Below, piece after piece: positions 2 through 57,052 of a stretch of 64,000 nucleotides of DNA. The position numbers and the translations under genes are program-made. The stretch covers positions 112,414 to 176,413 of the forward strand of contig CANIEU010000001.1 of assembly GCA_947466585.1 (NCBI GenBank). Reading direction: 5' to 3'. Source of the DNA: Fibrobacterota bacterium. Lineage in GTDB: Bacteria > Fibrobacterota > Fibrobacteria > UBA11236. The stretch's first letter is position 1, and each line of letters starts with the position of its first letter. The notes under the pieces are model-generated. The model worked only from the letters and a program-made list of their open reading frames with translations, was not told where the DNA came from and searched no databases.

Positions 2-877
2 GTGGTCAACGACGAGACGGCCCGCAAAAGCCGCGTGCTCGAGCTCGGCGACGCCGTGCGCATCGAGATTCCCGCAGAGAAAACCATCGGCAGAGTCGAA
101 CCGGAAAATATTCCGATCGAAATCGTATACGAGGACAAGTACCTCGCCGTGGTCAACAAACCCAAGGGTCTGGTCACGCACCCGGGACACGGCGTGCCCG
201 GCGGTACGCTCGCCAACGCGCTCGCCTATCGCTTCAAATCGCTCTCCGATTTCGGCGGATCGGATCGACCCGGTATCGTGCACAGATTGGATCGGGACAC
301 TTCGGGGTTACTCGTGGTCGCGCGCGACAACGCTACGCATGCCGCACTCTCCGCGCAACTGGCGGCCCGCGATATCCATCGCACCTACCGCGCCCTCATT
401 TGGCGCGAACCGCCTCCCGAAGGCACTTTCGACTGGCCGCTCGGACGACACATGAAGGATCCCGTCAAACGCGCGGTGATCCAACCCGATCCCCGCGGCA
501 TCCCGGGCAAGGCCGCCGTGACGCACTACCGCGTGACCGACTGGTACCAGTTCGCCGCACAGGTCGAAGTCACGCTCGATACCGGACGCACGCACCAGAT
601 CCGCGTTCACTTCTCCCACGCGGGGTTCCCCGTGATCGGCGATACCTTATACGGCGGCGGCGAGTCGATGCTAGGCCGCGTGCCGCCGTTGTTTCATTCT
701 TCTGCGGCGGCCTTGATCAAGCGGCTCAACTCGCAAGCCCTGCATGCCGCAAAGCTTGCGTTCACGCATCCGCGCACGGGCAAGATGCTCGAGTTCACGT
801 CGCCCTTGCCCGAAGAATTCCAAAACGCGCTGAAATTCTTGGAAAAGTTTCGGAGGGAAGATGAGGAGATTGATTAA
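2..877 (+). CDS. rluD: RluD-family 23S rRNA pseudouridine synthase, 5' end missing
   Basis: Converts uridines of ribosomal RNA to pseudouridine. The gene enters from outside the window: the first ~25 visible residues look like the end of an S4 RNA-binding domain (V-N-D-E followed by LELGDAVRIEIP), so the initiator lies upstream and the GTG at position 2 is probably not the start. The catalytic domain follows: NKPKGLVTHPG at ~52-62, the catalytic motif HRLDRDTSG at ~94-102 (the Asp after HRL is the nucleophile) and GRTHQIRVH at ~193-201. S4 plus this catalytic core fits the RluC/RluD group. RluD is the usual single member in this phylum-level context, but RluC-like specificity cannot be excluded. 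The stop lies inside the left arm of a heptamer inverted repeat. Confidence 0.9.
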   Translation: MVNDETARKSRVLELGDAVRIEIPAEKTIGRVEPENIPIEIVYEDKYLAVVNKPKGLVTHPGHGVPGGTLANALAYRFKSLSDFGGSDRPGIVHRLDRDTSGLLVVARDNATHAALSAQLAARDIHRTYRALIWREPPPEGTFDWPLGRHMKDPVKRAVIQPDPRGIPGKAAVTHYRVTDWYQFAAQVEVTLDTGRTHQIRVHFSHAGFPVIGDTLYGGGESMLGRVPPLFHSSAAALIKRLNSQALHAAKLAFTHPRTGKMLEFTSPLPEEFQNALKFLEKFRREDEEID

Positions 878-968
878 TGAACAATGCGCAATGCTCAAAA
901 ACGCATCAGCGTATTGGTCAAAGTCTTTCCCCCTCTCTGAGCATTGTTCATTGCGCATTGTTCATTGA
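876..968. repeat. Heptamer-array inverted repeat A
   Basis: The left arm (876-896) is three tandem heptamers, AATGAAC, AATGCGC and AATGCTC. The right arm, read on the minus strand from 966 to 939, is four heptamers, AATGAAC, AATGCGC, AATGAAC and AATGCTC. The arms therefore pair in at least two registers and differ by one inserted unit. The loop is about 40 nt (898-937) with no obvious structure. The left arm overlaps the stop codon of the pseudouridine synthase; the right arm ends 29 nt before the proposed GTG of the methyltransferase. Same architecture as the elements at 48.2, 50.6, 54.2 and 56.2 kb. Confidence 0.85.
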
Positions 969-997
969 ACCCTGATTTCCGACGGAGAATCCTTCCT

Positions 998-13234: not shown

Positions 13235-15172
13235 ATGTTGCCTTCTTCTTCTCCCGCACCGAAAAACTCGACGAATTCGGAGAGCGGTGCCCCTGGTTCT
13301 CCCGCCCCCAAGACGATTGAAGAACTCGATTCCGTAACCATTCGGTTCGCCGGCGATTCCGGCGACGGGATGCAGCTTACGGGAACGCAGTTCACCGATG
13401 CCGCCGCACTCTTCGGCAACGATCTCGCGACCATGCCCGACTTTCCCGCAGAGATCCGTGCTCCCGCGGGCACGGTTGCAGGCGTCAGCGCATTTCAACT
13501 TCACTTTTCGTCACACGAAATCAAAACTCCCGGCGACGACCTCGACGTTTTGGTTGCCATGAACGCTGCGGCGCTCAAGGCCAATATCGCCGATCTCGAA
13601 ATCGGCGGCATTCTCGTGGTCGATCTCGCCGGTTTCGGCGAGAAGGATCTCGAAAAGGCGGAGTATAGCGAAAGCCCGCTGCGTCACGGCGCGCTCGATG
13701 CGTATCGCGTGATCGAGGTCGACATCACCGGACAGACGGTGCGCGCGGTGGAACACACCGGCCTCAAGGGTCGCTCCGCCGAACTCTGCAAAAACTTCTT
13801 CACGCTCGGCATGATGTACTGGTTGTACGACCGCCCGGTCGAGCACACGCTGTCCTGGATTCAGACCAAATTCGGTCCCAAGACGAAGTACAAGGACAAG
13901 CCTGAAATCGCCTCGGCCAACCAGGCTGCGTTGCTCGCGGGCTTTAACTACGCCGAAACGGTGGAGCTCTTCGCCAGCAGCTATCGCGTCAAGAAAGCGG
14001 AACTTCCCACCGGCAAATACCGTAAGATCTCCGGGAACGAAGCCACCGTATTCGGGCTCATCGCGGCCGCGCAGAAAGCCGGACTCGAAATCGTTTACGG
14101 CAGCTACCCGATCACTCCCGCCTCCGACGTGCTGCACGGCCTTTCCCGTCAAAAGCATTTCGGCGTCACCACCTTTCAGGCCGAAGACGAAATCGCCGCG
14201 ATGGCCTCCATCGTGGGCGCCGCCTACGCGGGCGCGCTCGGCGTAACCGCCACTTCGGGCCCGGGCATCTGCCTCAAGTCCGAAGCCATGGGCCTCGCGG
14301 TGATGACCGAACTTCCCATGGTGGTGATCGACGTGCAACGCGGCGGCCCCAGCACCGGCCTGCCCACCAAGACCGAACAATCCGACTTGCTGCTCAATAT
14401 GTTCGGGCGCTCGGGTGACAGCCCGCTGCCCATCCTGGCGGCCAAGTCGCCTTCGGATTGCTTCAACATGGCCTACGAGGCCACGCGCATCGCACTCAAG
14501 TACATGACGCCCGTGGTGCTGCTCACCGATGGCTACATCGCCAACGGCTCCGAGCCTTGGCTCATTCCCGATCCGGATGCGCTGCCTTTTATTCTCACAA
14601 ACCGCGCGTTGTCGCCTGCTCCCGGCCAGGGCGAATACCTGCCCTACCTTCGCAACCCCGAAACGCTTGCGCGTCCGTGGCCCATTCCCGGAACACCCGG
14701 TCTCGAACACCGCATCGGCGGCCTCGAGAAGGCGCAAAATACCGGAAAGATCTCGTACGACCCCGGCAACCACGACGCCATGACGCGCGAGCGCGCGGCA
14801 AAGGTTGCGGGCATCGCCAAAGACATCCCGGCGCAGACCGTGGAAGGCGATCCGTCTGCCGATGTGCTGGTGGTTTCGTGGGGCGGCACCTACGGCGCCG
14901 TCTCCACCGCAGTCGGCGACTGCAATGCCAATGGCATTCGGTTGGCGCATGCGCACATCCAATACATGAACCCTTTCCCCGCGAACCTGCGGCAAATCCT
15001 CGGGTCGTACAAGCAGGTGGCTATTCCCGAGCTGAACATGGGTCAACTCCGGATGCTCCTCTCCGGAACCTACGGGATTCCCGCCATCGGCATCAACTTG
15101 GTGCGCGGCAAACCGTTCCGCATCTCTTACCTCGTCGACAAATTCGAACGCATCGTGAAGGCCCTCGCATGA
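13235..15172 (+). CDS. korA: 2-oxoacid:ferredoxin oxidoreductase, fused gamma-alpha subunit
   Basis: Oxidative decarboxylation of a 2-oxoacid, probably 2-oxoglutarate, with CoA and ferredoxin. The 645-aa chain begins with a gamma domain (VTIRFAGDSGDGMQLTGTQF, residues ~31-50, through ~200) and continues into the alpha/pyrimidine-binding domain with YPITPAS, the phosphate-binding TSGPGICLKSEAMGLA and QRGGPSTGLPTKTEQSDL. This gamma-alpha order is typical of KorA. The ATG at 13235 has CCGGAG about 10 nt upstream; the preceding Ser/Pro-rich residues (~2-25) are not conserved in the family. It overlaps korB by ATGA. Substrate choice between 2-oxoglutarate and another 2-oxoacid is inferred from overall similarity. 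Confidence 0.87.
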   Translation: MLPSSSPAPKNSTNSESGAPGSPAPKTIEELDSVTIRFAGDSGDGMQLTGTQFTDAAALFGNDLATMPDFPAEIRAPAGTVAGVSAFQLHFSSHEIKTPGDDLDVLVAMNAAALKANIADLEIGGILVVDLAGFGEKDLEKAEYSESPLRHGALDAYRVIEVDITGQTVRAVEHTGLKGRSAELCKNFFTLGMMYWLYDRPVEHTLSWIQTKFGPKTKYKDKPEIASANQAALLAGFNYAETVELFASSYRVKKAELPTGKYRKISGNEATVFGLIAAAQKAGLEIVYGSYPITPASDVLHGLSRQKHFGVTTFQAEDEIAAMASIVGAAYAGALGVTATSGPGICLKSEAMGLAVMTELPMVVIDVQRGGPSTGLPTKTEQSDLLLNMFGRSGDSPLPILAAKSPSDCFNMAYEATRIALKYMTPVVLLTDGYIANGSEPWLIPDPDALPFILTNRALSPAPGQGEYLPYLRNPETLARPWPIPGTPGLEHRIGGLEKAQNTGKISYDPGNHDAMTRERAAKVAGIAKDIPAQTVEGDPSADVLVVSWGGTYGAVSTAVGDCNANGIRLAHAHIQYMNPFPANLRQILGSYKQVAIPELNMGQLRMLLSGTYGIPAIGINLVRGKPFRISYLVDKFERIVKALA

Positions 15173-45293: not shown

Positions 45294-46184
45294 CTACCAG
45301 TTTCCCGAGGCGCCGCCGCCTCCAAAAGAACCACCGCCGCCGCCGAAGCCACCGCCACCGCCGAAACCACCGCCGCCCCCCATGCCTCCAAAGCCGCCGC
45401 GTGAGCCGTGTGAATAAAAGCCGCCGCCACCCATACCGCCGAGGCCTGCAGCCAAGGTTCCCAAACCGAGGAGGCCGAACACCAACGCCAGAAACCCGAA
45501 AAGTGCGCCCAGAATGATCGAACCGAACAGGAGCCACGACAAAAATCCCACCACGGCTCCGGCACCGATCCCGCCGACTACGCGCCCCAAAATCGTGGGC
45601 AATACGAACACCGCGAAGGCTGCGGCGATCAGAAGCAACTGCAACAAGCCCCCGGGAGTGCCCCGGCGTGCGGGCGCTGCGGCCGCCGCAGGCAAGGGTT
45701 CCCCGTCGATGACCTTTACGGCCTGTTCCAGACCGGCGCGGATACCGCCGGGAAAATCGTTTTGCTGAAACAATGGCGTCACGGTTTCATCGAGAATGCG
45801 GTTCGCCACCGCGTCGGGAAGACTCCCTTCGAGGCCGTAGCCGACCTCGAAACGCATGGCGTGATCGTTCACGGCAACCACCATGAGAAGCCCATTGTCC
45901 TTTTTCTCGTGGCCGAGCTTCCACGCTTCGGCGACGCGCAAGGAGTACTGTTCGATGGCTTCGGGCCGTGTGGTGGGCACCACCAGCACCACGACCTGCG
46001 CACCTTTTTGCGCTTCCACGGCAGCCAGCCAACCTTCCAGTTCACCAGCCGATTGCTGGGAAAACACTCCGACCTGATCCACGACCCTGCCCGTAAGCGG
46101 CGGAACCGGCACAAGGTCGACGGCGGAGACCCCAACGGGAATCAACCCGCAGAGCACTGCCGCCAAAACGAGATTCCGGAACAA
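45294..46184 (-). CDS. TPM-domain membrane protein with glycine-rich tail
   Basis: 296 aa. Signal peptide (LVLAAVLCGLIPVGVSA), periplasmic TPM domain (~25-150; GRVVDQVGVFSQQSAGELEGWLAAVEAQKGAQVVVLVV, KKDNGLLMVVAVNDHAMRFEVGYGLEGSLPD), two or three transmembrane helices (~178-245), then a Gly/Phe/Ser-rich tail ending GGGGASGNW. This is the canonical YgcG layout. Between lemA (3 bp upstream) and the smaller TPM gene, so likely one operon. Confidence 0.88.
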   Translation of the reverse strand: MFRNLVLAAVLCGLIPVGVSAVDLVPVPPLTGRVVDQVGVFSQQSAGELEGWLAAVEAQKGAQVVVLVVPTTRPEAIEQYSLRVAEAWKLGHEKKDNGLLMVVAVNDHAMRFEVGYGLEGSLPDAVANRILDETVTPLFQQNDFPGGIRAGLEQAVKVIDGEPLPAAAAAPARRGTPGGLLQLLLIAAAFAVFVLPTILGRVVGGIGAGAVVGFLSWLLFGSIILGALFGFLALVFGLLGLGTLAAGLGGMGGGGFYSHGSRGGFGGMGGGGGFGGGGGFGGGGGSFGGGGASGNW

Positions 46185-46187
46185 GGA

Positions 46188-46835
46188 TTATTCCTTTTTC
46201 GCCGGCGCAGAGAAATCCACGGCGGGCGCATTCGAAACCGCCGCCTCATCCACCACCGTGAAATTGGCCTTGGCCGTGTAGCCGAAGATCTTAGCCGTCA
46301 GGTTGGTCGGGAAGGAACGCGTCAGAATGTTGTATTGCTTGACGGTCTCGATATACCGGCCGCGCGCGACGGTGATGCGGTTTTCGGTGCCTTCGAGTTG
46401 CGCCTGCAGGTCGCGGAAAAGGCCGTCGGCCTTGAGCTGCGGGTAATTCTCGGCAACCACCATGAGGCGCGAGAGCGCGCCTTTCATCTGGTTTTGCGCC
46501 GCCATGAACTTCGCCAAGGCGGCTTCGTCGTTCACGAGTTCAGGGGTGGCCTGTATCGAACCCACGCGGGCACGGGCCTCGGCGACGTCGGTAAAGACCT
46601 GGCTCTCGTGGGCGGCATAACCCTTCACCGTTTGAACGAGGTTCGGCACCAGGTCGGAACGGCGCTGGTATTGGTTGATGACTTCAGACCATTGCGATTT
46701 CACTTCTTCGTCCATCGCCTGAAAACGGTTGTAGCCGCAGCCCGTCAGGCTTGTCGAGAGGATCAACAGGGCGGCCGCTAGAACCAAGGTTTTGAGGGCG
46801 GCCATTTTATTGAGCGGGAATATGTTTGAGATCAT
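46188..46835 (-). CDS. lemA: LemA-family lipoprotein
   Basis: 215 aa. Type II signal peptide with lipobox LTGC, then the LemA helical domain: YNRFQAMDEEVKSQWSEVINQYQRRSDLVPNLVQTVKGYAAHE, LSRLMVVAENYPQLKADGLFRDLQAQLEGTENRITVARGRYIETVKQYNILTRSFPTNL. LemA proteins are mostly helical, surface or periplasmic, of unclear role, and often adjoin TPM genes. ATG 46835 has AGGAGCT about 8 nt upstream; the longer frame lacks a signal. First gene of a three-gene minus-strand operon, divergent from the glycosyltransferase gene. Confidence 0.9.
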   Translation of the reverse strand: MISNIFPLNKMAALKTLVLAAALLILSTSLTGCGYNRFQAMDEEVKSQWSEVINQYQRRSDLVPNLVQTVKGYAAHESQVFTDVAEARARVGSIQATPELVNDEAALAKFMAAQNQMKGALSRLMVVAENYPQLKADGLFRDLQAQLEGTENRITVARGRYIETVKQYNILTRSFPTNLTAKIFGYTAKANFTVVDEAAVSNAPAVDFSAPAKKE

Positions 46836-46958
46836 CGGGAGCTCCTGGCTGGGTAGGCACGTTGTTCCCCATAAGATACGTCGACCGTGGTTGCCAAGGT
46901 AGGACCAGGGGGGAGCAGGCAAACAAAGGTCGGCGGGGGTCTACTATGTTTCTGCCGC

Positions 46959-48188
46959 ATGACAACCAAGCCCTTGACCGCACTGGATTGCAACGAATTT
47001 TGGAGCCCGTCGGGCGGGGGCGTGCGCCGCTACCATCTGGAGAAGATGGCCTTCTTCCGCAAACAGAACGCCGATACCGTGCGTCACATCATGGTGATGC
47101 CCGGGCCGGAGGCCCGTACCGAACAAACCGGGCCCGACACGTACATCGAACATGTTCCCGCGTTCAAGTTTCCCGGCAATTGGGAATATCGCCTTTGCCC
47201 TTCCACCCGTGCACTGCGGGCGGTGATTCTGCGCCATCGGCCCGATGTGATCGAAGTCGGCAGCCCGTACCTGCTTCCGGGACGCATCCTTTCCATCGTA
47301 GACGAACTGCCGGAAGCGGACCGCCCCCGCATCGTGGGATTTTGGCATTCGGATTTTCCGGTTACCTACGTGGGCCGGTTCTTCGCGCGCTTCAGTCGCA
47401 TGCTCGGTGGAATGACCGAGGCGATGGCCTGGATGTACGCGCGCCGCCGCTACAATCGCATGGATGCGATTCTCGTGCCCAGCCGCCTGATTCTGGAGCG
47501 ACTGCGCCTCAACGGCCTGCAGAACCTGCACCATGTTCCCCTCGGGGTGGATTCGCGTACGTTCACTCCTGCCGCGCTTGACGAGTCCCGCGTGGCCGAC
47601 CTGAAGGCGGGCATGCCCGGTCGGCTGACGATTTTTTTCGGTCACCGATTCGCGGAAGAAAAAGGCCTGCGCACCTTTCTGAAAGCCTATCCGGAAATCT
47701 GCGCGCGTCTCGGGCACGAACCCGCCGTGGTATTCGCAGGCACGGGTCCCGACCTCGATCTGGTGCAGGCGGCTGTGAAGGCGAACGCGCATATGCGCTA
47801 CATCGGTTTTGTCCGCAGCCCGCAGGAGATGGCGGCATGGTACGCCTCGTGCCATATGGGCCTGGCGCTCAGCGGCTGGGAAACCTTCGGGCTTTCCATT
47901 CTCGAAGCGATGGCCTGCGGACAGATTCTGATCGGCGTCAATCAGGGAGCAGCGCGCGAACACATCGAAGACAGCGCCGGAAACGGCGGCGCGGGCCTCA
48001 CGATTCCGGTAGCCGACCCCAAAGCATTGGCGGAAGCGGTGGAGAAATTGTGGAACGACCGAGGCTCTTGGCAGGAACGCTCGCGCAAGGCCGTGGCTTA
48101 TGCGCAACGGTTGACGTGGGAGCGGTGCTTTGAACGCGAAGTGGAGATCTACAGGAATTTGGCCACTCGAGGTTCAAATGAGAAATGA
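46959..48188 (+). CDS. GT4-type glycosyltransferase
   Basis: 409 aa, GT-B fold. N-terminal acceptor domain with the glycine motif SPSGGGVRRYHLEKM; C-terminal donor domain with RLTIFFGHRFAEEKGLRTFLKAYPEI, VVFAGTGPDLD, IGFVRSPQEMAAWYASCHMGLALSGWETFGLSILEAMACG, the E-x(7)-E retaining motif of family 4. Likely transfers a sugar to a cell-surface glycan or lipid; donor and acceptor unknown. TACTAT (46942) lies just upstream of the ATG. The last codons and stop are made by the left arm of heptamer element B. Confidence 0.87.
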   Translation: MTTKPLTALDCNEFWSPSGGGVRRYHLEKMAFFRKQNADTVRHIMVMPGPEARTEQTGPDTYIEHVPAFKFPGNWEYRLCPSTRALRAVILRHRPDVIEVGSPYLLPGRILSIVDELPEADRPRIVGFWHSDFPVTYVGRFFARFSRMLGGMTEAMAWMYARRRYNRMDAILVPSRLILERLRLNGLQNLHHVPLGVDSRTFTPAALDESRVADLKAGMPGRLTIFFGHRFAEEKGLRTFLKAYPEICARLGHEPAVVFAGTGPDLDLVQAAVKANAHMRYIGFVRSPQEMAAWYASCHMGLALSGWETFGLSILEAMACGQILIGVNQGAAREHIEDSAGNGGAGLTIPVADPKALAEAVEKLWNDRGSWQERSRKAVAYAQRLTWERCFEREVEIYRNLATRGSNEK

Positions 48189-48307
48189 GAAATAAGAAAT
48201 GAACGGCGAAAAATCTCAATGCCAAACGTCAACGGACTTATTTTAAAATCTGTTCGACTCATTTTCTTGCTTCCCTTTTCTCATTCTTCATTTCTCATTT
48301 CTCATTT
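48176..48307. repeat. Heptamer-array inverted repeat B
   Basis: The left arm is AAATGAG, AAATGAG, AAATAAG, AAATGAA (48176-48203). The right arm is CTCATTC, TTCATTT, CTCATTT, CTCATTT (48280-48307), which reads AAATGAG, AAATGAG, AAATGAA, GAATGAG on the minus strand. The loop is 76 nt. The stop codon TGA of the glycosyltransferase (48186-48188) is inside the left arm and the next gene starts 3 nt after the right arm, so the element is essentially the whole intergenic space. Confidence 0.9.
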
Positions 48308-48310
48308 CCT

Positions 48311-49249
48311 ATGATCCCCAATCGCCTCATCTTCATCTGGTTCGGCAGCGCTTTTCCATATGGCAATCTGCTCGCCCTGCGTTCGGCGCGGCGGTGGTTC
48401 AAGCCCGAAGAGATATTGCTGATCGTGGACGATCCGGAAGGCATTCGGGAGAAGATCGAAGACTGCGCAGACTGGCCGGAGCTTCGACTCGCTCGCGCCG
48501 ATGCAGCCTGGTTTCGGGGCCTCCCCCATATTTCCGCGATCGCGACGGAACTCTTCGCCGAAAATCTTTCGCCGGCCAGCAAGGCCAATCTGATCCGCCT
48601 CGCGGCGTTGTACGACCTCGGCGGCGTGTATCTCGACTTCGATACCATCACGGTCGCCGATCCGGCTCCGCTGCTCGCGAAATCCGGGTTCTGCGGCACG
48701 GAGCCGCTCGCCTTGCCCGCCGATCTGTTCCGCAGCGCGAATCCGCTGCGCTGGATCGCCGCGGGCCTGCGACTTGCCGCCCGTCAAGCTCTGGCCTACC
48801 CGCCGGGCGGTTGGCGCGTGTTCCGGGTCATCGAAGGTCTGTATCCGGCCGCCGCTAACAACGCGGTGATCGGCGCAGAGGCCGGACATCCCTTTCTGGA
48901 AACCTGTTTCCGCCTGATGGCCGCGCTCCCGCCTGCCGAGCGCCTGAAGCGCTTCCGCCTCGGCACGCATTTGCTGCAACGCGCGGTAAAAACGACCGCG
49001 CCAGATTCCCGCCACGGATTCGACGTGATGCCGGTCTCGACCTTTTATCCCCTCGGACCCGAAATCGCCACGCATTGGTTCAAGCCGGGGACGGCCCGCG
49101 GGCTCGATGCGATGCTGCGCCCCGATACGGTGATCGTGCATTGGTACAACTCGGTGGAGAGCCGTTTGGGGGGCAAGGCGCTGACGCGGGAATGGGTGGC
49201 GGCGCATCCGGACACAGCCTTCGCGGAGATGGTGCGACGGTATTGTTGA
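48311..49249 (+). CDS. DXD-type glycosyltransferase (GT32-like)
   Basis: 312 aa. It begins with MIPNRLIFIWFGSAFP, the start typical of the glycosyltransferase sugar-binding/DXD family, and has ANLIRLAALYDLGGVYLDFDTI with the metal-binding D-x-D near residues 115-117. The C-terminal VIVHWYNSVESRLGG also fits family 32 (H-x-W-x-x-S-W-like). Expected to add a hexose to a surface glycan; substrate unknown. It probably works with the GT4 enzyme upstream, although the heptamer hairpin separates them. Confidence 0.85.
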   Translation: MIPNRLIFIWFGSAFPYGNLLALRSARRWFKPEEILLIVDDPEGIREKIEDCADWPELRLARADAAWFRGLPHISAIATELFAENLSPASKANLIRLAALYDLGGVYLDFDTITVADPAPLLAKSGFCGTEPLALPADLFRSANPLRWIAAGLRLAARQALAYPPGGWRVFRVIEGLYPAAANNAVIGAEAGHPFLETCFRLMAALPPAERLKRFRLGTHLLQRAVKTTAPDSRHGFDVMPVSTFYPLGPEIATHWFKPGTARGLDAMLRPDTVIVHWYNSVESRLGGKALTREWVAAHPDTAFAEMVRRYC

Positions 49250-49412
49250 GGGATTCGGGAGGGTGATCCGGAGTCCCGCCCGACTGCTCTTTGGGTTACT
49301 TTTCCGCACTGAATGAATCTTTGAAACGTCCTGCCAGAGAGCATGTGATACAGCCTGTGATACGGCCAGTGTTGCGGCCTTCGGGGTTGCTTAAGATACG
49401 GGAGATCTTCCG

Positions 49413-50600
49413 ATGAAAACCAAAGGAAACGTGCGAATGAAAAAGTCGATTGCGACGCTTGCGACGATTTCCAAGATTGCACTTGGCCTCGCCGCCCTCC
49501 TCGCCCTTCCCCTCGCGGGTTGCGGCAAAAAAGCCGACTCCAATGAAATTCTGATCGGCGAATACGGTGCGCTCACCGGCTCCATCGCCAGCTTCGGGCA
49601 GAGCACCCACAAAGGCATCACCCTCGCCATCGAAGAGATCAACGCGAGTGGCGGCGTACTCGGCAAAAAAATCCGCCTCGTCACCGAAGACGATCAGGGC
49701 AAACCCGAAGAAGCCCTCACCGCCGTCACCAAGCTCATCAGCAAAGACCGCGTGTCCGCGCTCCTTGGCGAGTTCGCCTCGTCGAACAGCCTCGCCGCGG
49801 CACCCATGGCGCAAAGCAGCGGTATCCCGATGGTATCGCACGGTTCGACCAATCCCAAAGTCACGCAGGTCGGCGACTACATCTTCCGCGTCTGCTTCAT
49901 CGACCCCTTCCAGGGGCAGGTGATGGCGAAGTTCGCGCACAACTCCCTCAAGCTTGGTCACGTGGCGATTCTGCGCGACGTGAAGAGCGATTACTCGGTG
50001 GGCCTGGCCGACTACTTCACGCAGAACTTCGTAGCCGCAGGCGGCGCGATTGCGGGTGACGAAAGCTACAGTGCGGGCGACAAGGATTTCAACGCCCAGC
50101 TGACCTCACTGATCGCGAAGAAGCCCGAAGCCTTGTTTATTCCCGGCTATTATACCGAGGTCGGTCTGATCGCACGGCAGGCGCGGCGTTTGGGCTTCAC
50201 GGGCGCGCTGCTCGGCGGCGACGGCTGGGACAGCGAGAAGCTGTGGGAGATCGGCGGCGACGCGTTGAACAACGGGTATTTCTCCAACCACTATTCGGTG
50301 GACAACCCCGCCCCCGAGATCCGCGCCTTCGTGGAGAAGTTCAAAGCCCACAATCAGGGTGAGGCGCCCGACGCGCTTGCAGCGCTCGGCTACGACGCGA
50401 CCCGCGTGCTGGTCGACGCCATCCGCCGTGCGGGTTCCGACAAACCTTCCGCCATCCGCGACGCGCTGGCGCAGACCAAGGACTTCCCCGGCATCACCGG
50501 CAACATCACACTCAACGCCCAACGCGACGCGGTAAAATCCGCTGTCGTCCTAGAAGTCAAGGACGGCAAGTTCCTGTATAAGGAGACGGTTGCGCCATAA
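49413..50600 (+). CDS. livK: Branched-chain amino-acid ABC transporter substrate-binding lipoprotein
   Basis: 395 aa. Lipoprotein signal peptide with lipobox LAGC (near residue 37) and then the type I periplasmic-binding fold of LivJ/LivK: EILIGEYGALTGSIASFGQSTHKGITLAIEEINASGGVLGKKI, LIFIPGYYTE-like sequence (EALFIPGYYTEVGLIARQAR), GDGWDS and LGYDATRVLVDAIRRAG. The exact ligand is inferred (Leu/Ile/Val or a related compound). ATG 49413 is preceded by CGGGAGA; ATG 49437 is a second option. First gene of livKHMGF; separated from livH by heptamer element C. Upstream, 49343-49377, GTGATACNGCC-like units are repeated. Confidence 0.88.
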   Translation: MKTKGNVRMKKSIATLATISKIALGLAALLALPLAGCGKKADSNEILIGEYGALTGSIASFGQSTHKGITLAIEEINASGGVLGKKIRLVTEDDQGKPEEALTAVTKLISKDRVSALLGEFASSNSLAAAPMAQSSGIPMVSHGSTNPKVTQVGDYIFRVCFIDPFQGQVMAKFAHNSLKLGHVAILRDVKSDYSVGLADYFTQNFVAAGGAIAGDESYSAGDKDFNAQLTSLIAKKPEALFIPGYYTEVGLIARQARRLGFTGALLGGDGWDSEKLWEIGGDALNNGYFSNHYSVDNPAPEIRAFVEKFKAHNQGEAPDALAALGYDATRVLVDAIRRAGSDKPSAIRDALAQTKDFPGITGNITLNAQRDAVKSAVVLEVKDGKFLYKETVAP

Positions 50601-50601
50601 A

Positions 50602-50744
50602 GAATGAGAAATGATGAATGAGAAATGAGAAAAGAACACGGGTCGACTGCCAAACTGGTCTCTGCGCAGTTCCCAGCTGTTTCAACACTCACCGCCTGAT
50701 TCCGAGCTTATCTCTCATCATTTCTCATTTCTCATTCATCATTC
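50602..50744. repeat. Heptamer-array inverted repeat C
   Basis: The left arm is GAATGAG, AAATGAT, GAATGAG, AAATGAG, AAAAGAA (50602-50636). The right arm on the minus strand is GAATGAT, GAATGAG, AAATGAG, AAATGAT (50744 to 50717). One register gives a perfect 21-bp stem, 50612-50632 with 50721-50741; the loop is 88 nt in that register. The element fills the gap between livK (stop ends at 50600) and livH (start 50749). Its heptamers are the same as in element B. Confidence 0.9.
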
Positions 50745-50748
50745 CCCT

Positions 50749-51657
50749 ATGACCGTCTTTCTCCAGCAACTTCTCAACGGCCTCTCGCTCGGCAGCATCT
50801 ACGCCCTGGTCGCGCTCGGTTACACCATGGTGTATGGCGTGCTGCGCCTGATCAACTTTGCGCACGGCGACGTTTACATGCTGGGGGCCTTCGCGGGCTA
50901 CTACACCAGCCGCCTGCTCCATGGCCATCTCGGTGCCGCCGGCGGAGGACTGGTCGAAGCAGGCATCATCCTCATGGTCTCCATGGTGGCGTGCGCCGGA
51001 GTGGGTATGCTCATCGAACGCCTCGCCTATCGTCCCGTGCGACGGGCCTCTCGCCTGACCATTCTCATCGTCGCCATCGGCGTCTCGCTCCTCATTGAAA
51101 ACGTTGCGCAGATGGTGTTCGGCGCCGAGCCGAAGTTCTTCCCGCAGATCATTCCGGAAAAACGCTTCGACTGGGCAGGCGTGGTCTTCACCAATCAACA
51201 AATCCTCGTGCTCGCCACCGCCGTGGTGCTGATGATCGGCCTCACGCTGTTCATCCGTCGCACCCGCACCGGCAAGGCCATGCGTGCCGTGGCCCACAAC
51301 CCCGACGCCGCACGCCTGATGGGCGTCAATGTCAATTTCATCATCAGCCTCACCTTCGCGATCGGCTCCGCGCTCGCCGCCGCGGGAGGCATCCTCGTCT
51401 CGCTCAACCAGCCCGGCATCGATCCGCTGATGGGATTGATGACCGGTATCAAGGCCTTTGTCGCGGCCGTGCTCGGCGGCATCGGCAGCATTCCCGGCGC
51501 CGTGCTCGGCGGTCTTCTGCTCGGCATGGCGGAAACCTTCGTGGCGGGCTACGGCTCCTCTACCTACCGCGATGCCATCGCCTTTCTCATTCTCATCGTC
51601 ATCCTGCTGCTGAAGCCCGCCGGGCTTTTGGGCAAGGGCCAAGTGGAGAAGGTGTGA
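50749..51657 (+). CDS. livH: Branched-chain amino-acid ABC transporter permease LivH
   Basis: Membrane permease of 302 aa, about eight helices. Family hallmarks: FLQQLLNGLSLGSIYALVALGYTMVYGVLRLINFAHGDVYMLGAF at the N-terminus, RTGKAMRAVAHNPDAARLMGVNVNFIISLTFAIGSALAAAGGIL (the EAA-like loop) and KAFVAAVLGGIGSIPGAVLGGLLLG. It overlaps livM by GTGA and lies immediately after heptamer element C. Confidence 0.93.
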   Translation: MTVFLQQLLNGLSLGSIYALVALGYTMVYGVLRLINFAHGDVYMLGAFAGYYTSRLLHGHLGAAGGGLVEAGIILMVSMVACAGVGMLIERLAYRPVRRASRLTILIVAIGVSLLIENVAQMVFGAEPKFFPQIIPEKRFDWAGVVFTNQQILVLATAVVLMIGLTLFIRRTRTGKAMRAVAHNPDAARLMGVNVNFIISLTFAIGSALAAAGGILVSLNQPGIDPLMGLMTGIKAFVAAVLGGIGSIPGAVLGGLLLGMAETFVAGYGSSTYRDAIAFLILIVILLLKPAGLLGKGQVEKV

Positions 51658-52700
51658 AGCGTCTTGTTCCAATCCTCGCGACCCTCGCGGGCCTCGCCCT
51701 GTTGCAGTGGGCCGCGACGGCGCTTTTGCTCGACGGGCCGATCCGGCAGGGACCCTACTATTACCAGATCCTCCTGCTCGCGGGCATCAACGTTATTCTC
51801 GCCGTATCGCTCAACCTGACCAACGGCGTCGCGGGGCAGTTCTCCATCGGCCACGCCGGGTTCTTCGCCGTGGGGGCCTACGTCGCCGCAAGCGTCTCCG
51901 TGTATGGCGGACCCGCAATCGCGGGTATACTCCCGAACATCCCCCTCGTCCGCGACTCCGGAATTCTGATCGCGGCCACCAGTGCGGGAGCCCTCGCCGC
52001 CGCGATCGCCGGATGGTTGGTAGGTATGCCCTCGCTGCGTCTGCGCGGCGACTACCTCGCCATCGTGACCTTGGGCTTCGGCGAAATCATCCGCGTGCTC
52101 ATCCTCAACATCGATGCGGTCGGTGGCGCACGCGGCTTCACGGGCATCCCGCGCCTCGCCAACCTGTTCTGGGTGGGACTCGGCGTCGCCGCATCCTTGG
52201 CAGTGGTGCGCAACATCACCCGCTCCAGCCACGGGCGCGCGCTGCTCGCCATCCGCAGCGACGAAATCGCCGCCCAGGCCATGGGCATCAACGTAACCCG
52301 GCTCAAGGTCACCGCCTTCGTGGTCAGTGCGGCCTTCGCGGGCGTGGCGGGATCGCTCTTCGCGCACTTCGCAATGTTCCTGCACCCCAACACCTTCACC
52401 TTCGTCAAAAGCTTCGAGATCGTCATCATGATCGCGCTGGGTGGGCTCGGCAGCCTTGCGGGCGCCGTGCTCGGCGCGGTGACGCTCACCGTACTGCCCG
52501 AACTCTTCCGAGGGTTCGCCGACTACCGCATGGTGATTTACGCACTGGCGCTCATTCTCATCATGATCTATCGGCCACAAGGCATGCTGGGCGCGGGAGG
52601 ATTCCTCGGCCGCATTGTGCGCATGCGCTGGAAGAAACCCGTAGCGAAAAAGGGCGCGGAAACGAAGAGCGCGGACAACATCGGCGGGCCCTCCGCATGA
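51654..52700 (+). CDS. livM: Branched-chain amino-acid ABC transporter permease LivM
   Basis: 348 aa, multi-spanning. Conserved parts: [111 protein letters not shown] and [20 protein letters not shown] start at 51654 overlapping livH. The basic C-terminal tail ([13 protein letters not shown]) is variable. Ends overlapping livG as ATGA. Confidence 0.93.
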
Positions 52701-53457
52701 CCGCCTTGCTCGAATTGAAAGACGTCACGCGGCGCTTCGGCGGCCTCACGGCCGTGAAGGACGTGTCCTTTACGGTGGAAGAAGGCGCGCTCTTCGGCGT
52801 GATCGGCCCCAACGGCGCGGGCAAAACCACGCTGTTCAACCTGATCAGTGGACTCTACGTGCCCGACACCGGCAGCATCGCATTGGCTGGTACACGCGTC
52901 TCCGGCCTTGCGCCACACTGCGTGGCCGCACAGGGTATCGCGCGCACCTTCCAGAACATCCGCCTCATCGGCAGCCTGAGCGTGCTCGACAACATCAAAA
53001 TCGCCTGCCACATGCGCCGCGCACCCACCTTGGGCTCCGCGGTGATCCGCAGCGCCGCGTTCGAGCGCTCGGAAGCCGACGTGCACGTCTTCGCGCTGCA
53101 ACTACTCGACCTCTTGCAACTGGGCACCCTGGCACACGAAGCGGCCGGCAACCTGCCGTACGGATCGCAACGTCGGCTCGAGATCGCACGCGCTCTCGCC
53201 ACCGAGCCACGCCTGCTCTTGCTCGATGAACCGGCGGCCGGCATGAATCCGCAGGAATCGCTCGAGCTTATGGCGCTGATCCGCCGTTTGCGCGATACCT
53301 TCCGACTCACCATCCTGCTTGTGGAACACAACATGAAGGTGGTCATGGGCGCCTGCGAGCGCATTCACGTGCTCGACCACGGTGAAAGCATCGCCGAAGG
53401 CACACCCGAAGAAATCCGGGGAAACGCCACCGTCATCGAAGCCTACCTCGGAGCCGG

Positions 53458-53461
<4 letters not shown>
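52697..53461 (+). CDS. livG: Branched-chain amino-acid ABC transporter ATPase LivG
   Basis: 254 aa ATPase. Walker A GPNGAGKT (~36-43), Q-loop and the LivG segment [21 protein letters not shown], signature [15 protein letters not shown], Walker [14 protein letters not shown]-loop VEHNM. The LivG/LivF pair is recognised by the GARTFQNI segment and the NPYGxQR-like signature. Start fixed by ATGA overlap with livM, and it overlaps livF at the end. Confidence 0.93.
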
Positions 53462-54165
<704 letters not shown>

Positions 54166-54172
54166 CAAAGAC

Positions 54173-54241
54173 GTGGATAGTGAAAAGTGGATAGTGGGAC
54201 AAGAAGAGTGAATACGCCATTTTTACTATCCACTATCCACT
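54173..54241. repeat. Heptamer-array inverted repeat D
   Basis: The left arm is GTGGATA, GTGAAAA, GTGGATA, GTGGGAC (54173-54200). The right arm on the minus strand is GTGGATA, GTGGATA, GTAAAAA (54240 to 54220). A perfect 12-bp match joins 54186-54197 and 54230-54241. The loop is under 30 nt, the smallest of the five. It lies between the convergent livF and nadE genes, where it might also act as a transcript end, but there is no T-run. Confidence 0.87.
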
Positions 54242-54247
54242 CATGAG

Positions 54248-56182
54248 TTATCTAAGAATCTTCGTTTTCAGTTCCTTGTACCGCTGCGTATAGACCGGAC
54301 GCCCCAAAAATTCGCGATGGTCGAACCCGAAAGCCCGCGAGCTCACGGCCAATACCGGCGGGGCTTGCACGCGCTTCGCCACCCCGATTCCGTTATAAAG
54401 ATTCCACCACCGTTCCAGATCGGCGATGAAGTCGGCCGGGGTCGGGAACAGTTTTTTCAGATCGAGGTCCTGCGGAAGCTGCAGCTCTGCCGCCAGAGTT
54501 CCTGCCGCGTACCATTCCAGGATTTCTTCCGGTGTCGCGCGATTCCAGCGCTGCACGAAGGCGTAGAACAGACGATCGTGATAAGGATACACCAGCGGGT
54601 CGCCCTTGCCTTCGTCCACGGCATGGTGAGCACCGAGTTCCGCAGAAGGGACGACATCGAAAACCCCTTGCGGGATAACCTTGCTACCGAAAACAGTGTC
54701 GTTGAGAAAGTGCCCGACCGCATACACATCGTGCTTCCACAAATCGCCCAGCGGGGCGAGAAATCCCGCGATGTCGCCGTACAAGGTTCCGTAGCCCACC
54801 GTCAGTTCCGCCTTGTTGGCGTTGCACGAAAACACGGCACCGAACGATTGGGAAATCCCCGCCAGCACCCGTGCGCCACGATCGCGCGCCTGCGCGTTTT
54901 CGTCGGCGAGGCCTTCCAATTTCAGCGTGACCCGATGCGTGCCGTTCGCGGAAGCCGCATTCAACCCGTGCAACTGCGACCGCACCACCGCAAGACTTTC
55001 TTCGATGGGCACTTCCGCATACAAACAGCCCAGATTGTCGGCCAGCTGCTTCGCCAGCGAACGCGTCGTCGCACTGTTGAATCGACTGGGCATGTTGACC
55101 AGCAATAAATTCTCTGGTTGCAGGAACTCGGCGTAAAGCGCCGCCGTCACCGCACTGTCGATGCCGCCCGATATGCCAATCACGACCTTCTTCAAACCCG
55201 TGGAGGCAAGAAACTGCTCGACGCCGTAACGCAATGCGGCATGGATTTCCGCAACAGGCGTACCGTGAACAGCCTGCGCAGGTGTTGCAGCCGGAATCGA
55301 CCAACTGCCGCCACCCGCAGACCGTACGACCTCGACAACCGTAACCGTCTCCGCATAGGGAACGGTTTCCACGAGCACCCGGCCGTCTCCCCCGTACACC
55401 GTGCTCGAACCGTCGAAGGTGTACAGCGTCTTTCCGTTATTCTGAATGCCGGTTGCATTCACATAGACCAGAGGACAACCGAGTAGCTTGGCCTTCGCAC
55501 CGAACACGCGGTTGCGTTTGTCGTTCTTCCCGCGCGTAAACGGCGATGCACTGAGGTTCACCACCAGGTCGGGGTGCTTCGAAGCCAAGGCGGCGACGGG
55601 CTTTTGAACGTAATCGTCTTCCCACGCATCTTCGCACAACAGTACCCCGAGACGGAGCGTCTGGCCGCGCAGCATCAACGTCACCGGCTCGATATAATCT
55701 TCCCACGCACATCCCGCGTCGCGGGCCAATTCCCGCGCATCATAAAAGTGACGTCCGTCTTCGAACTCACGATAATGCGGGAGCAAGGTTTTGATGCCGT
55801 AGGGGCGCTTCAGTCCGGGATGCTCGACGGCGGTCCCCTCTGCCGCGACGACCCACGCATTGTATTTACGCGGACGGCCGTCTTCGCCTTTCAGGTTCCA
55901 ATCGATGGCGACGGTACCGAAAACGATCGCGGGACCGCCCTGCGTGGCGGCGATGATGCGCGCGTTCCAGGTTTCACAATCCCGAAGAAACGCCGGGCGC
56001 TCCCAACCGTCTCCGAGAAAATATCCCGGCACGCATAGTTCGGGAAACACCAACACGTCGGCGCGGGTCTCAGCGGAGAGGGCCGCGTTCTCCGCGATCA
56101 GGCGCAACATCGTCTCTGCATTGCGGGCCGGCTCGCCGGGATGCACGCGCATTTGGCAGAGCGCGAATCGAAGGGACGTCAT
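54248..56182 (-). CDS. nadE: NAD+ synthetase, glutamine-hydrolysing
   Basis: Last step of NAD biosynthesis: amidation of deamido-NAD with glutamine. 644 aa in two domains. The N-terminal nitrilase-like glutaminase (~1-290) has the catalytic triad: E48 in FPELCVPGY, K in LKRPYGIKTLLPHYREFEDGRHF, and Cys in LGVLLCEDAWEDDY. The C-terminal synthetase (~300-644) has the PP-loop VVIGISGGIDSAVTAALYAEF, and GTLYGDIAGFLAPLGDLWKHDVYAVGHFLND. ATG 56182 begins the conserved strand. It is flanked on both sides by heptamer elements (D at the 3' end, E at the 5' end). Confidence 0.93.
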   Translation of the reverse strand: MTSLRFALCQMRVHPGEPARNAETMLRLIAENAALSAETRADVLVFPELCVPGYFLGDGWERPAFLRDCETWNARIIAATQGGPAIVFGTVAIDWNLKGEDGRPRKYNAWVVAAEGTAVEHPGLKRPYGIKTLLPHYREFEDGRHFYDARELARDAGCAWEDYIEPVTLMLRGQTLRLGVLLCEDAWEDDYVQKPVAALASKHPDLVVNLSASPFTRGKNDKRNRVFGAKAKLLGCPLVYVNATGIQNNGKTLYTFDGSSTVYGGDGRVLVETVPYAETVTVVEVVRSAGGGSWSIPAATPAQAVHGTPVAEIHAALRYGVEQFLASTGLKKVVIGISGGIDSAVTAALYAEFLQPENLLLVNMPSRFNSATTRSLAKQLADNLGCLYAEVPIEESLAVVRSQLHGLNAASANGTHRVTLKLEGLADENAQARDRGARVLAGISQSFGAVFSCNANKAELTVGYGTLYGDIAGFLAPLGDLWKHDVYAVGHFLNDTVFGSKVIPQGVFDVVPSAELGAHHAVDEGKGDPLVYPYHDRLFYAFVQRWNRATPEEILEWYAAGTLAAELQLPQDLDLKKLFPTPADFIADLERWWNLYNGIGVAKRVQAPPVLAVSSRAFGFDHREFLGRPVYTQRYKELKTKILR

Positions 56183-56191
56183 GGAGGGAAA

Positions 56192-56322
56192 GTTAGTAGG
56201 TAGTTATCAGTAGGTAGTAGGTAGACGGTAGCGAACGCGGGCACACCGCACCAAAACCCACTTTTGTGATTTTTGTTTTCGCTTAATCTACCGTCTACCG
56301 TCTACAAACTACCGTCTACTTC
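56192..56322. repeat. Heptamer-array inverted repeat E
   Basis: The right arm is CTACCGT, CTACCGT, CTACAAA, CTACCGT, CTACTTC (56288-56322). The left arm is a looser GTAG-headed series, clearest as GTAGTTA (56200), GTAGTAG (56214), GTAGACG (56221) and GTAGCGA (56228). GTAGACGGTAG (56221-56231) pairs perfectly with CTACCGTCTAC (56288-56298 and again in other registers). The stop codon of the minus-strand thioesterase gene (56316-56318) lies in the last heptamer; the left arm begins 10 nt upstream of the nadE start. Confidence 0.85.
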
Positions 56323-56801
56323 TTCCCCAACTGCGCCTGCAAGGCCAAACGGTTTTCGCGGCGGATTCCTGCCTGCGCAAAACGGCGCTTATCCTCCATG
56401 GTTTCGGGAAGCACCGTGGGCAGTTCGCGGGTCTTTCCCTGCGCATCCAGCGCGACGAAGGTGAGATACGCATTGCAAACGTATTCGGCCTCAGGACCAT
56501 CGGGAGGGAGAGAATAAACCGAAACCCCGACCTCCATGGATTTGTTGAAGACGCGGTTCACGCTCGCCTTTACCGTAAGAATCGAACCCAACCGCACGGG
56601 CCGCCGAAAGATCAGGCTGTCGATGGAAACCGTCACCACCGCGCTATGGGCGTGTTTGATGGCACTGATGGCCGCGGTTTTATCGATGATGCTCGCAAGC
56701 CGACCGCCGAACAAATGCCCAAGGTGATTCAGGTCGGACTGTAGAATGATCTCCGAAGACTCGGTGCGGGACAAAAAGACGGGGCGGGCAGGGGTTTCCA
56801 T
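56316..56801 (-). CDS. Hotdog-fold acyl-CoA thioesterase
   Basis: 161 aa, YciA/BACH-like hydrolase of acyl-CoA. The hotdog signature is DLNHLGHLFGGRLASIIDKTAAISAIKHAHS (~24-54), with the family Asn/Asp and Gly-Gly; then VVTVSIDSLIFRRPVRLGSILTVKASVNRVFNKSMEVGVSVY. Chain-length preference is unknown. ATG 56801 fits the family N-terminus; a longer frame to 56915 encodes non-conserved residues. Upstream are three 10-bp direct repeats (56848-56877). Its stop codon is within heptamer element E. Confidence 0.87.
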   Translation of the reverse strand: METPARPVFLSRTESSEIILQSDLNHLGHLFGGRLASIIDKTAAISAIKHAHSAVVTVSIDSLIFRRPVRLGSILTVKASVNRVFNKSMEVGVSVYSLPPDGPEAEYVCNAYLTFVALDAQGKTRELPTVLPETMEDKRRFAQAGIRRENRLALQAQLGKK

Positions 56802-56847
56802 GAAGAGGAAGGTAGCTTCCGGTGTTTTTCGGAATGCGCGGTCAATT

Positions 56848-56877
56848 GATCGAAAGGGATCGAAAGTGATCGAATTT
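56848..56877. repeat. Three tandem 10-bp direct repeats
   Basis: GATCGAAAGG (56848), GATCGAAAGT (56858) and GATCGAATTT (56868). The exact 10-bp period places them on one DNA face. They lie upstream of the minus-strand thioesterase gene and could bind a regulator cooperatively. Confidence 0.6.
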
Positions 56878-57052
56878 CTCCGATTTGAAGCCTTTTTCGG
56901 GACTCTGCGGGGCAATCCGACCCTTCCCGACTCCCCTCTGGTTTGGGCGGCGAGTCGAAAGAGAGGCTGGATTGGGGGCGAAGAGCGGAATCAGAGGATA
57001 TTTGGTTCTGGCCGGTACGCCGTGTGCTTTCGCCTCGAACCCTCAAAAAACT

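Follow-up and report, generated by a model that had tools for sequence, protein, structure and literature searches.

The window analysed here is a 64,000-nt stretch of a Fibrobacterota genome (G000), and coordinates refer to it unless a locus is named. It carries the branched-chain amino acid transporter operon livKHMGF, identified by Pfam. livK is an open reading frame on the + strand (49413-50600; Peripla_BP_6, E 5e-62) that encodes the periplasmic branched-chain amino acid binding protein, and its best named matches are Fibrobacteria/Fibrobacteres MAGs, the top one at 77%. The permease gene livH follows on the same strand (50749-51657; BPD_transp_2, E 2e-48). The gap of 148 bp between the livK stop codon (50598-50600) and the livH ATG (50749) is occupied by an inverted repeat. 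A purine-rich heptamer array on the + strand (50602-50632) forms its 5' arm, of which 50610-50632 is perfectly paired with the inverted copy of the array on the - strand (50721-50743), whose end lies 5 nt ahead of the livH ATG. The arms, AATGATGAATGAGAAATGAGAAA, are made of heptamers of the AATGAGA type. The original prediction of a 21-bp perfect stem between livK and livH was right as to place; the stem is slightly longer, 23 bp without a mismatch, or 26 nt at 96%. The arms are spaced by a loop of 88 nt (50633-50720), a unique sequence with neither a promoter-like nor a terminator-like site.

RNA folding of the gap gave a z-score of -4.5, with none of 200 shuffles folding equally well. The hairpin does not have the form of an intrinsic terminator: its loop is 88 nt long, and no short-loop GC-rich stem with a U-tract is present in 50560-50800. 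No promoter-like site was found in the gap, and there were no Rfam matches in 46000-57000. The proposed comparison of folding energy with other gaps did not set this one apart, its per-base minimum free energy being ordinary (rank 45 of 101 among gaps of 100-200 bp).

The gap sequence has many further matches within G000. Searching the whole genome with AATGAGAAATGAGAA at up to 3 mismatches gave 100 + 114 places, compared with 5 + 4 for the reversed control. A word-independent detector, which requires arms of at least 16 nt, complementarity of at least 80% and a separation of at most 260 nt, was applied to a 544-kb sample, which makes up 24% of the 2.24-Mb genome and comprises the window together with 24 stretches, each of 20 kb. 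It found 62 inverted pairs, 32 with a period of 7 and 7 with any other period; three shuffled copies gave 55 inverted pairs, none with period 7. Between called genes lie 28 of the 32 period-7 pairs. Extrapolation from the 544 kb gives about 130 elements in the genome. The anatomical counts below use 48 elements, the 32 and 16 more from outside the sample, fetched mostly for the word AATSAGA; 4 of the 48 overlap a called gene and 1 is at a contig end. Lag-7 arrays, whether paired or not, are intergenic in 69 of 80 cases in G000 and 69 of 79 in the congener G002, and in 100 kb of the congener G003 none is intergenic.

The window itself contains further members. One with the words AATGAAC/AATGCGC lies in a codirectional gap (876-966), and one with the word AAATGAG lies between two glycosyltransferase genes (48176-48300, its array continuing to about 48308). 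A third, with AGTGGAT, is in the convergent livF/NAD synthetase gap (54179-54241). A fourth, with GTAGGTA/GTAGACG, stands beside the NAD synthetase gene (56213-56313), where the genes abut or overlap in most relatives. At 13833-13887 of locus L164, ACAGCGG-type and GAACAGA arrays lie immediately behind a tRNA-Ala gene (13751-13826).

The elements lie mostly between genes, occur in many copies and are each built of two oppositely oriented arrays of tandem heptamers. The words of G000 include AATGAGA, AAATCAG/AAATATG, GGTAGNN, TAGTGNN, ACAGCNN, ACAGTNN and CAATGNN. The polarity is nearly fixed, the G-rich arm coming first in 47 of 48 elements of G000, 31 of 35 of G002 and 10 of 11 elsewhere, compared with 13 of 30 other inverted pairs. 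In 55 of 72 elements from G000 and G002 the two most variable heptamer columns are adjacent (chance, one third), and the unit is thus mostly five constant and two variable bases; this count is driven largely by a few words, and the 5+2 type is mostly missing from the arrays of more distant genomes. The loops are unique. None recurs in the sequence compared, save for one 23-nt and two 16-17-nt matches of G000 loops, and capture of loops from elsewhere was rejected on this ground; the 23-nt match is exact, between the L169 loop (C1:317989-318131) and L175 15972-15994. No target-site duplication is conspicuous: direct repeats of the 48 elements are at background for 5-mers (9, expected 9.65), and 2 were found for 7-mers (expected 0.44). 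Two other proposals were rejected. Arrays of stop codons in all frames were not favoured, a stop occurring in the 5'-arm strand of 19 of 39 words (20.0 expected), and the AATGAGA pair, searched with that word and spacing only, was found in no viral contig.

The architecture extends to the relatives and the words mostly do not. G002, with 35 elements in 465 kb, is built as G000 is, and its words are mostly others (GGTTGTT, GGGGGAC, AGGTANN), few being common to both (ACAGCNN, AATGATG). In whole genomes, threefold GGTAGNN occurs at 62 + 53 places in G000, 3 + 10 in G002 and none in the congeners G001 and G003; GTTGTTR occurs at 50 + 35 places in G002, where its reversed control, again an array-like word, gave 16 + 17, and at none in G000, G001 or G003. 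No element was detected in the sampled parts of G001 (36 kb), G003 (100 kb), G004 (100 kb), G008 (60 kb), G009 (43 kb), G005 (20 kb) and G006 (20 kb), and G007 has 2 in 90 kb sampled. Further afield, threefold GAAATNN is present in 27 of 150 genomes of the phylum. Eleven phylum genomes sampled by stretches, several of these stretches picked for existing matches to GAAATNN or its control, gave 9 elements in 7 genomes. The reversed control itself, repeated TAAAGNN, is abundant in G005 (8 + 19 places), G019 (16 + 28), G080 (18 + 16) and G135 (10 + 39), and other heptamer words therefore appear to be common across the phylum.

Comparison of G000 with G002 shows sites with and without elements. Of 63 gene pairs adjacent in both genomes, 48 have no element in either; 2 carry one in both, 6 carry one in G000 alone and 7 in G002 alone, so that positions are not shared above chance (p 0.32). 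The two shared gaps have unrelated words (L174 11264-11401 in G000 and L196 13684-13841 in G002; window 877-997 and L218 13549-13668). In 11 of the 13 one-sided cases the element-bearing gap exceeds its counterpart (median 80 bp, Wilcoxon p 0.013); the other 2 count against insertion.

Several gaps can be followed through more relatives, and these outgroups give the direction of change. The livG-livF gap without an element is -4 in G000, G001 and G003, -8 in G005, 3 in G004 and 19 in G006; with an element it is 124 in G002 and, with another element, 239 in G007. These two livG-livF elements (L186 4076-4158 in G002, L190 6886-7024 in G007) differ and were independently acquired. The gap beside the NAD synthetase gene is 163 in G000, -1 or -4 in G002, G005, G007 and G008, and 48 in G006. 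The livK-livH gap measures 6 to 55 in G002-G007. Direct reading found no heptamer array in it in eight relatives, G002-G009, a count that leaves out G001, in which the sequence upstream of livH is not recognisable as livK. Since all eight lack it there, insertion in the lineage of G000 is the simplest account of the livK-livH element. G002, the closest relative, has a short canonical terminator in this gap.

These observations lead to the reading that we prefer and hold with about even confidence: the livK-livH stem is one of a family of inverted heptamer-array elements that were inserted at scattered sites. Dispersal, period, polarity, net DNA gain in most one-sided gaps, species-specific words and unique loops are direct observations. 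Beyond them, the elements are probably inserted as units by putative machinery that would recognise or build the arrays. Each member has 3-5 heptamers pointing inward on one side, their inverted copy on the other and, between the two, a unique loop of about 20-135 nt. On this reading each appears as a net gain of roughly 60-170 bp at the edge of a gene, with turnover among species, with a largely lineage-specific heptamer word and with the 7-bp step, the G-rich first arm and the two arms common to all. The hairpin between livK and livH would then be mainly a by-product; when transcribed, it may weakly uncouple livHMGF from livK. The further suggestion of a Fibrobacterota foldback-like insertion system is speculative and, as a whole, rather unlikely. 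A putative enzyme would make or recognise element ends in which a short core recurs at 7-bp steps, and would place elements with unique loops exactly where genes adjoin, disrupting stop-start overlaps within operons; the word of the core would drift between species.

A role tuned to the excess of LivK over LivHMGF, as originally proposed, fares poorly. The same type of element separates numerous pairs of genes that are unrelated to liv, some of them convergent, and the eight relatives have nothing comparable between livK and livH. Liv-specific control of stoichiometry was rejected on this last ground.

Placement relative to genes bears on a more general role. The arms are mostly a few bases off stop and start codons. 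With genes from a simple codon-score caller, so that orientation classes are approximate, and counting every element that falls mostly inside a gap, an element sits, among gaps of 70-600 bp in G000, in 7 of the 27 between convergent genes, 19 of the 140 between codirectional genes and 3 of the 53 between divergent genes. The figures for gaps of 60-600 bp in G002 are 7 of 26, 18 of 133 and 4 of 53. Combined, these are 14 of 53, 37 of 273 and 7 of 106, a share that rises with how many genes end at the gap (p 0.0008 for trend). The enrichment could reflect a 3'-end role; selection against landing in promoters predicts the same. An SD-like motif is found upstream of about a third of called genes in the G000 sample (120 of 368 away from elements), compared with 2 of the 19 genes behind an element, and starts behind elements are mostly preceded by the pyrimidine-rich arm. 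Loop length in G000 has a median of 44 in convergent and 77 in codirectional gaps (p 0.0007). It did not track orientation in G002, and a read-through insulator around a promoter was dropped as an explanation.

The trend with 3' ends speaks for a hairpin that has a function between cistrons or at 3' ends. Acting as an RNase III substrate or a barrier to exonucleases, it would protect the message upstream of it and reduce the one downstream, in the manner originally proposed. We consider this possible but unlikely. It would also fit the loops, of which 2 of 29 in codirectional gaps are structured (z below -2) compared with 46 of 150 element-free gaps. Together with the terminator of G002 in the livK-livH gap, this suggests that the stem may replace an ordinary hairpin. 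The 3' arm, moreover, adjoins start codons, where SD-like motifs are rarer. Three RNA-level tests, however, lend no support to selection for the stem. Mismatches read in the sense orientation do not favour G-U over A-C (9 and 9 in G000, 5 and 15 in G002). Covariation of the arms as a stem was rejected: the probability that an arm matches its own mate better than the arms of other elements is 0.72, 0.51 and 0.72 for three word families of G000 and 0.52, 0.88 and 0.80 for three of G002, so that the own mate is weakly better overall and no better at all in two of the six families, GGTAG and GGTTG. Folding energy per base equals that of other gaps. In addition, elements occur between divergent genes, and their positions are not significantly common to G000 and G002.

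A second alternative takes the arrays as binding sites, a 5-bp core every 7 bp in two inward-pointing arrays recognised by a nucleoid or regulatory protein, with the complementarity of the arms incidental. The fixed polarity of the arms and the confinement of variation mainly to two adjacent columns are as it predicts, and similar paired arrays in Geobacter metallireducens have been read as sites for a global regulator, IHF or HU, in the account of that genome (PMC2700814). It is nevertheless improbable, as the many unrelated words per genome would call for several proteins and words change between congeners; the column pattern, too, is carried by a few words and is mostly absent from distant arrays. 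A third alternative, very unlikely, is that the arrays are ordinary heptamer microsatellites with neither function nor machinery, produced when the polymerase slips and given inverted partners by template switching at fold-backs. Heptamers are reported to be the most frequent long repeats in many bacteria (cited in PMC4679880 and PMC4692102), and 28 of the 69 intergenic lag-7 arrays of G000 are unpaired by the detector, but variation is confined to few columns rather than spread, polarity is nearly constant, the net gain includes a unique loop and 100 kb of the congener G003 has none.

The inserted-element reading can be set against known mobile repeats. As in MITEs and foldback elements, terminal inverted repeats occur in dispersed copies. 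The loops are unique in the sequence compared, so that copies share no interior with one another or with any autonomous element, and no candidate transposase for the elements was found. REP sequences and BIMEs, such as that between malE and malF, are palindromic intergenic repeats at 3' ends without heptamer arrays; REP families often go with a RAYT transposase, which is not obligatory in every REP genome. The elements are alike in being palindromic, intergenic and at 3' ends. They differ in their heptamer arrays; their copies have only heptamer words in common rather than a shared palindrome of 20-40 bp, and no RAYT was found. The REP-associated transposase domain PF01797 has no match in G000 or G002 and matches in 1 of 10 family genomes. 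The original description of a heptamer array and not a REP element is thus borne out.

Closer parallels come from published descriptions. The GGGAATC arrays of Xanthomonas are likewise dispersed, intergenic, mostly of about 4 units and quickly varying between relatives, with 70 (Xcc) and 75 (Xac) inverted convergent pairs and a position between divergent ORFs in only 7-8%, as reported by Rehm 2015 (PMC4692102). That account concerns one G-rich word and proposed quadruplexes, whereas many words occur here, most of them not quadruplex-like, and net insertion relative to abutting genes is observed. In Geobacter metallireducens, short tandem arrays are paired on opposite strands at variable distance, with several consensus words in that one genome. 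The sites are described in classes 1-3, absent from the sister species; class 3 has five heptamers MTYCTGA and class 1 is octameric, and their reading as global-regulator (IHF/HU) sites sets them apart from the elements here (PMC2700814). Beggiatoaceae have intergenic TAACTGA arrays of 2-6 units near start codons, but their 169 sets are given as almost all direct, with one indirect, and not as inverted pairs (MacGregor 2015, PMC4679880). The Drosophila elements Foldback and Galileo are alike in structure only, with long terminal inverted repeats containing internal tandem repeats and a variable middle; as described, they are eukaryotic, far larger and have target-site duplications and a transposase (PMC3573991); here no transposase was found and no target-site duplication stood out. 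A literature search of partial coverage gave no account of them in Fibrobacterota, a weak indication that none has been published. Relative to the Xanthomonas and Geobacter precedents, the range of words within a genome and the repeated insertion at junctions inside operons are new.

For paired heptamer arrays, described independently in those two genera, there is no consensus on how they arose. In Fibrobacterota, a pair of congeners with the same architecture and mostly different words, congeners whose sampled parts gave none and empty sites at overlapping genes make that origin testable by strain comparison. If the elements truly land in overlapping operon junctions, they would be natural experiments in the uncoupling of translation and stoichiometry.
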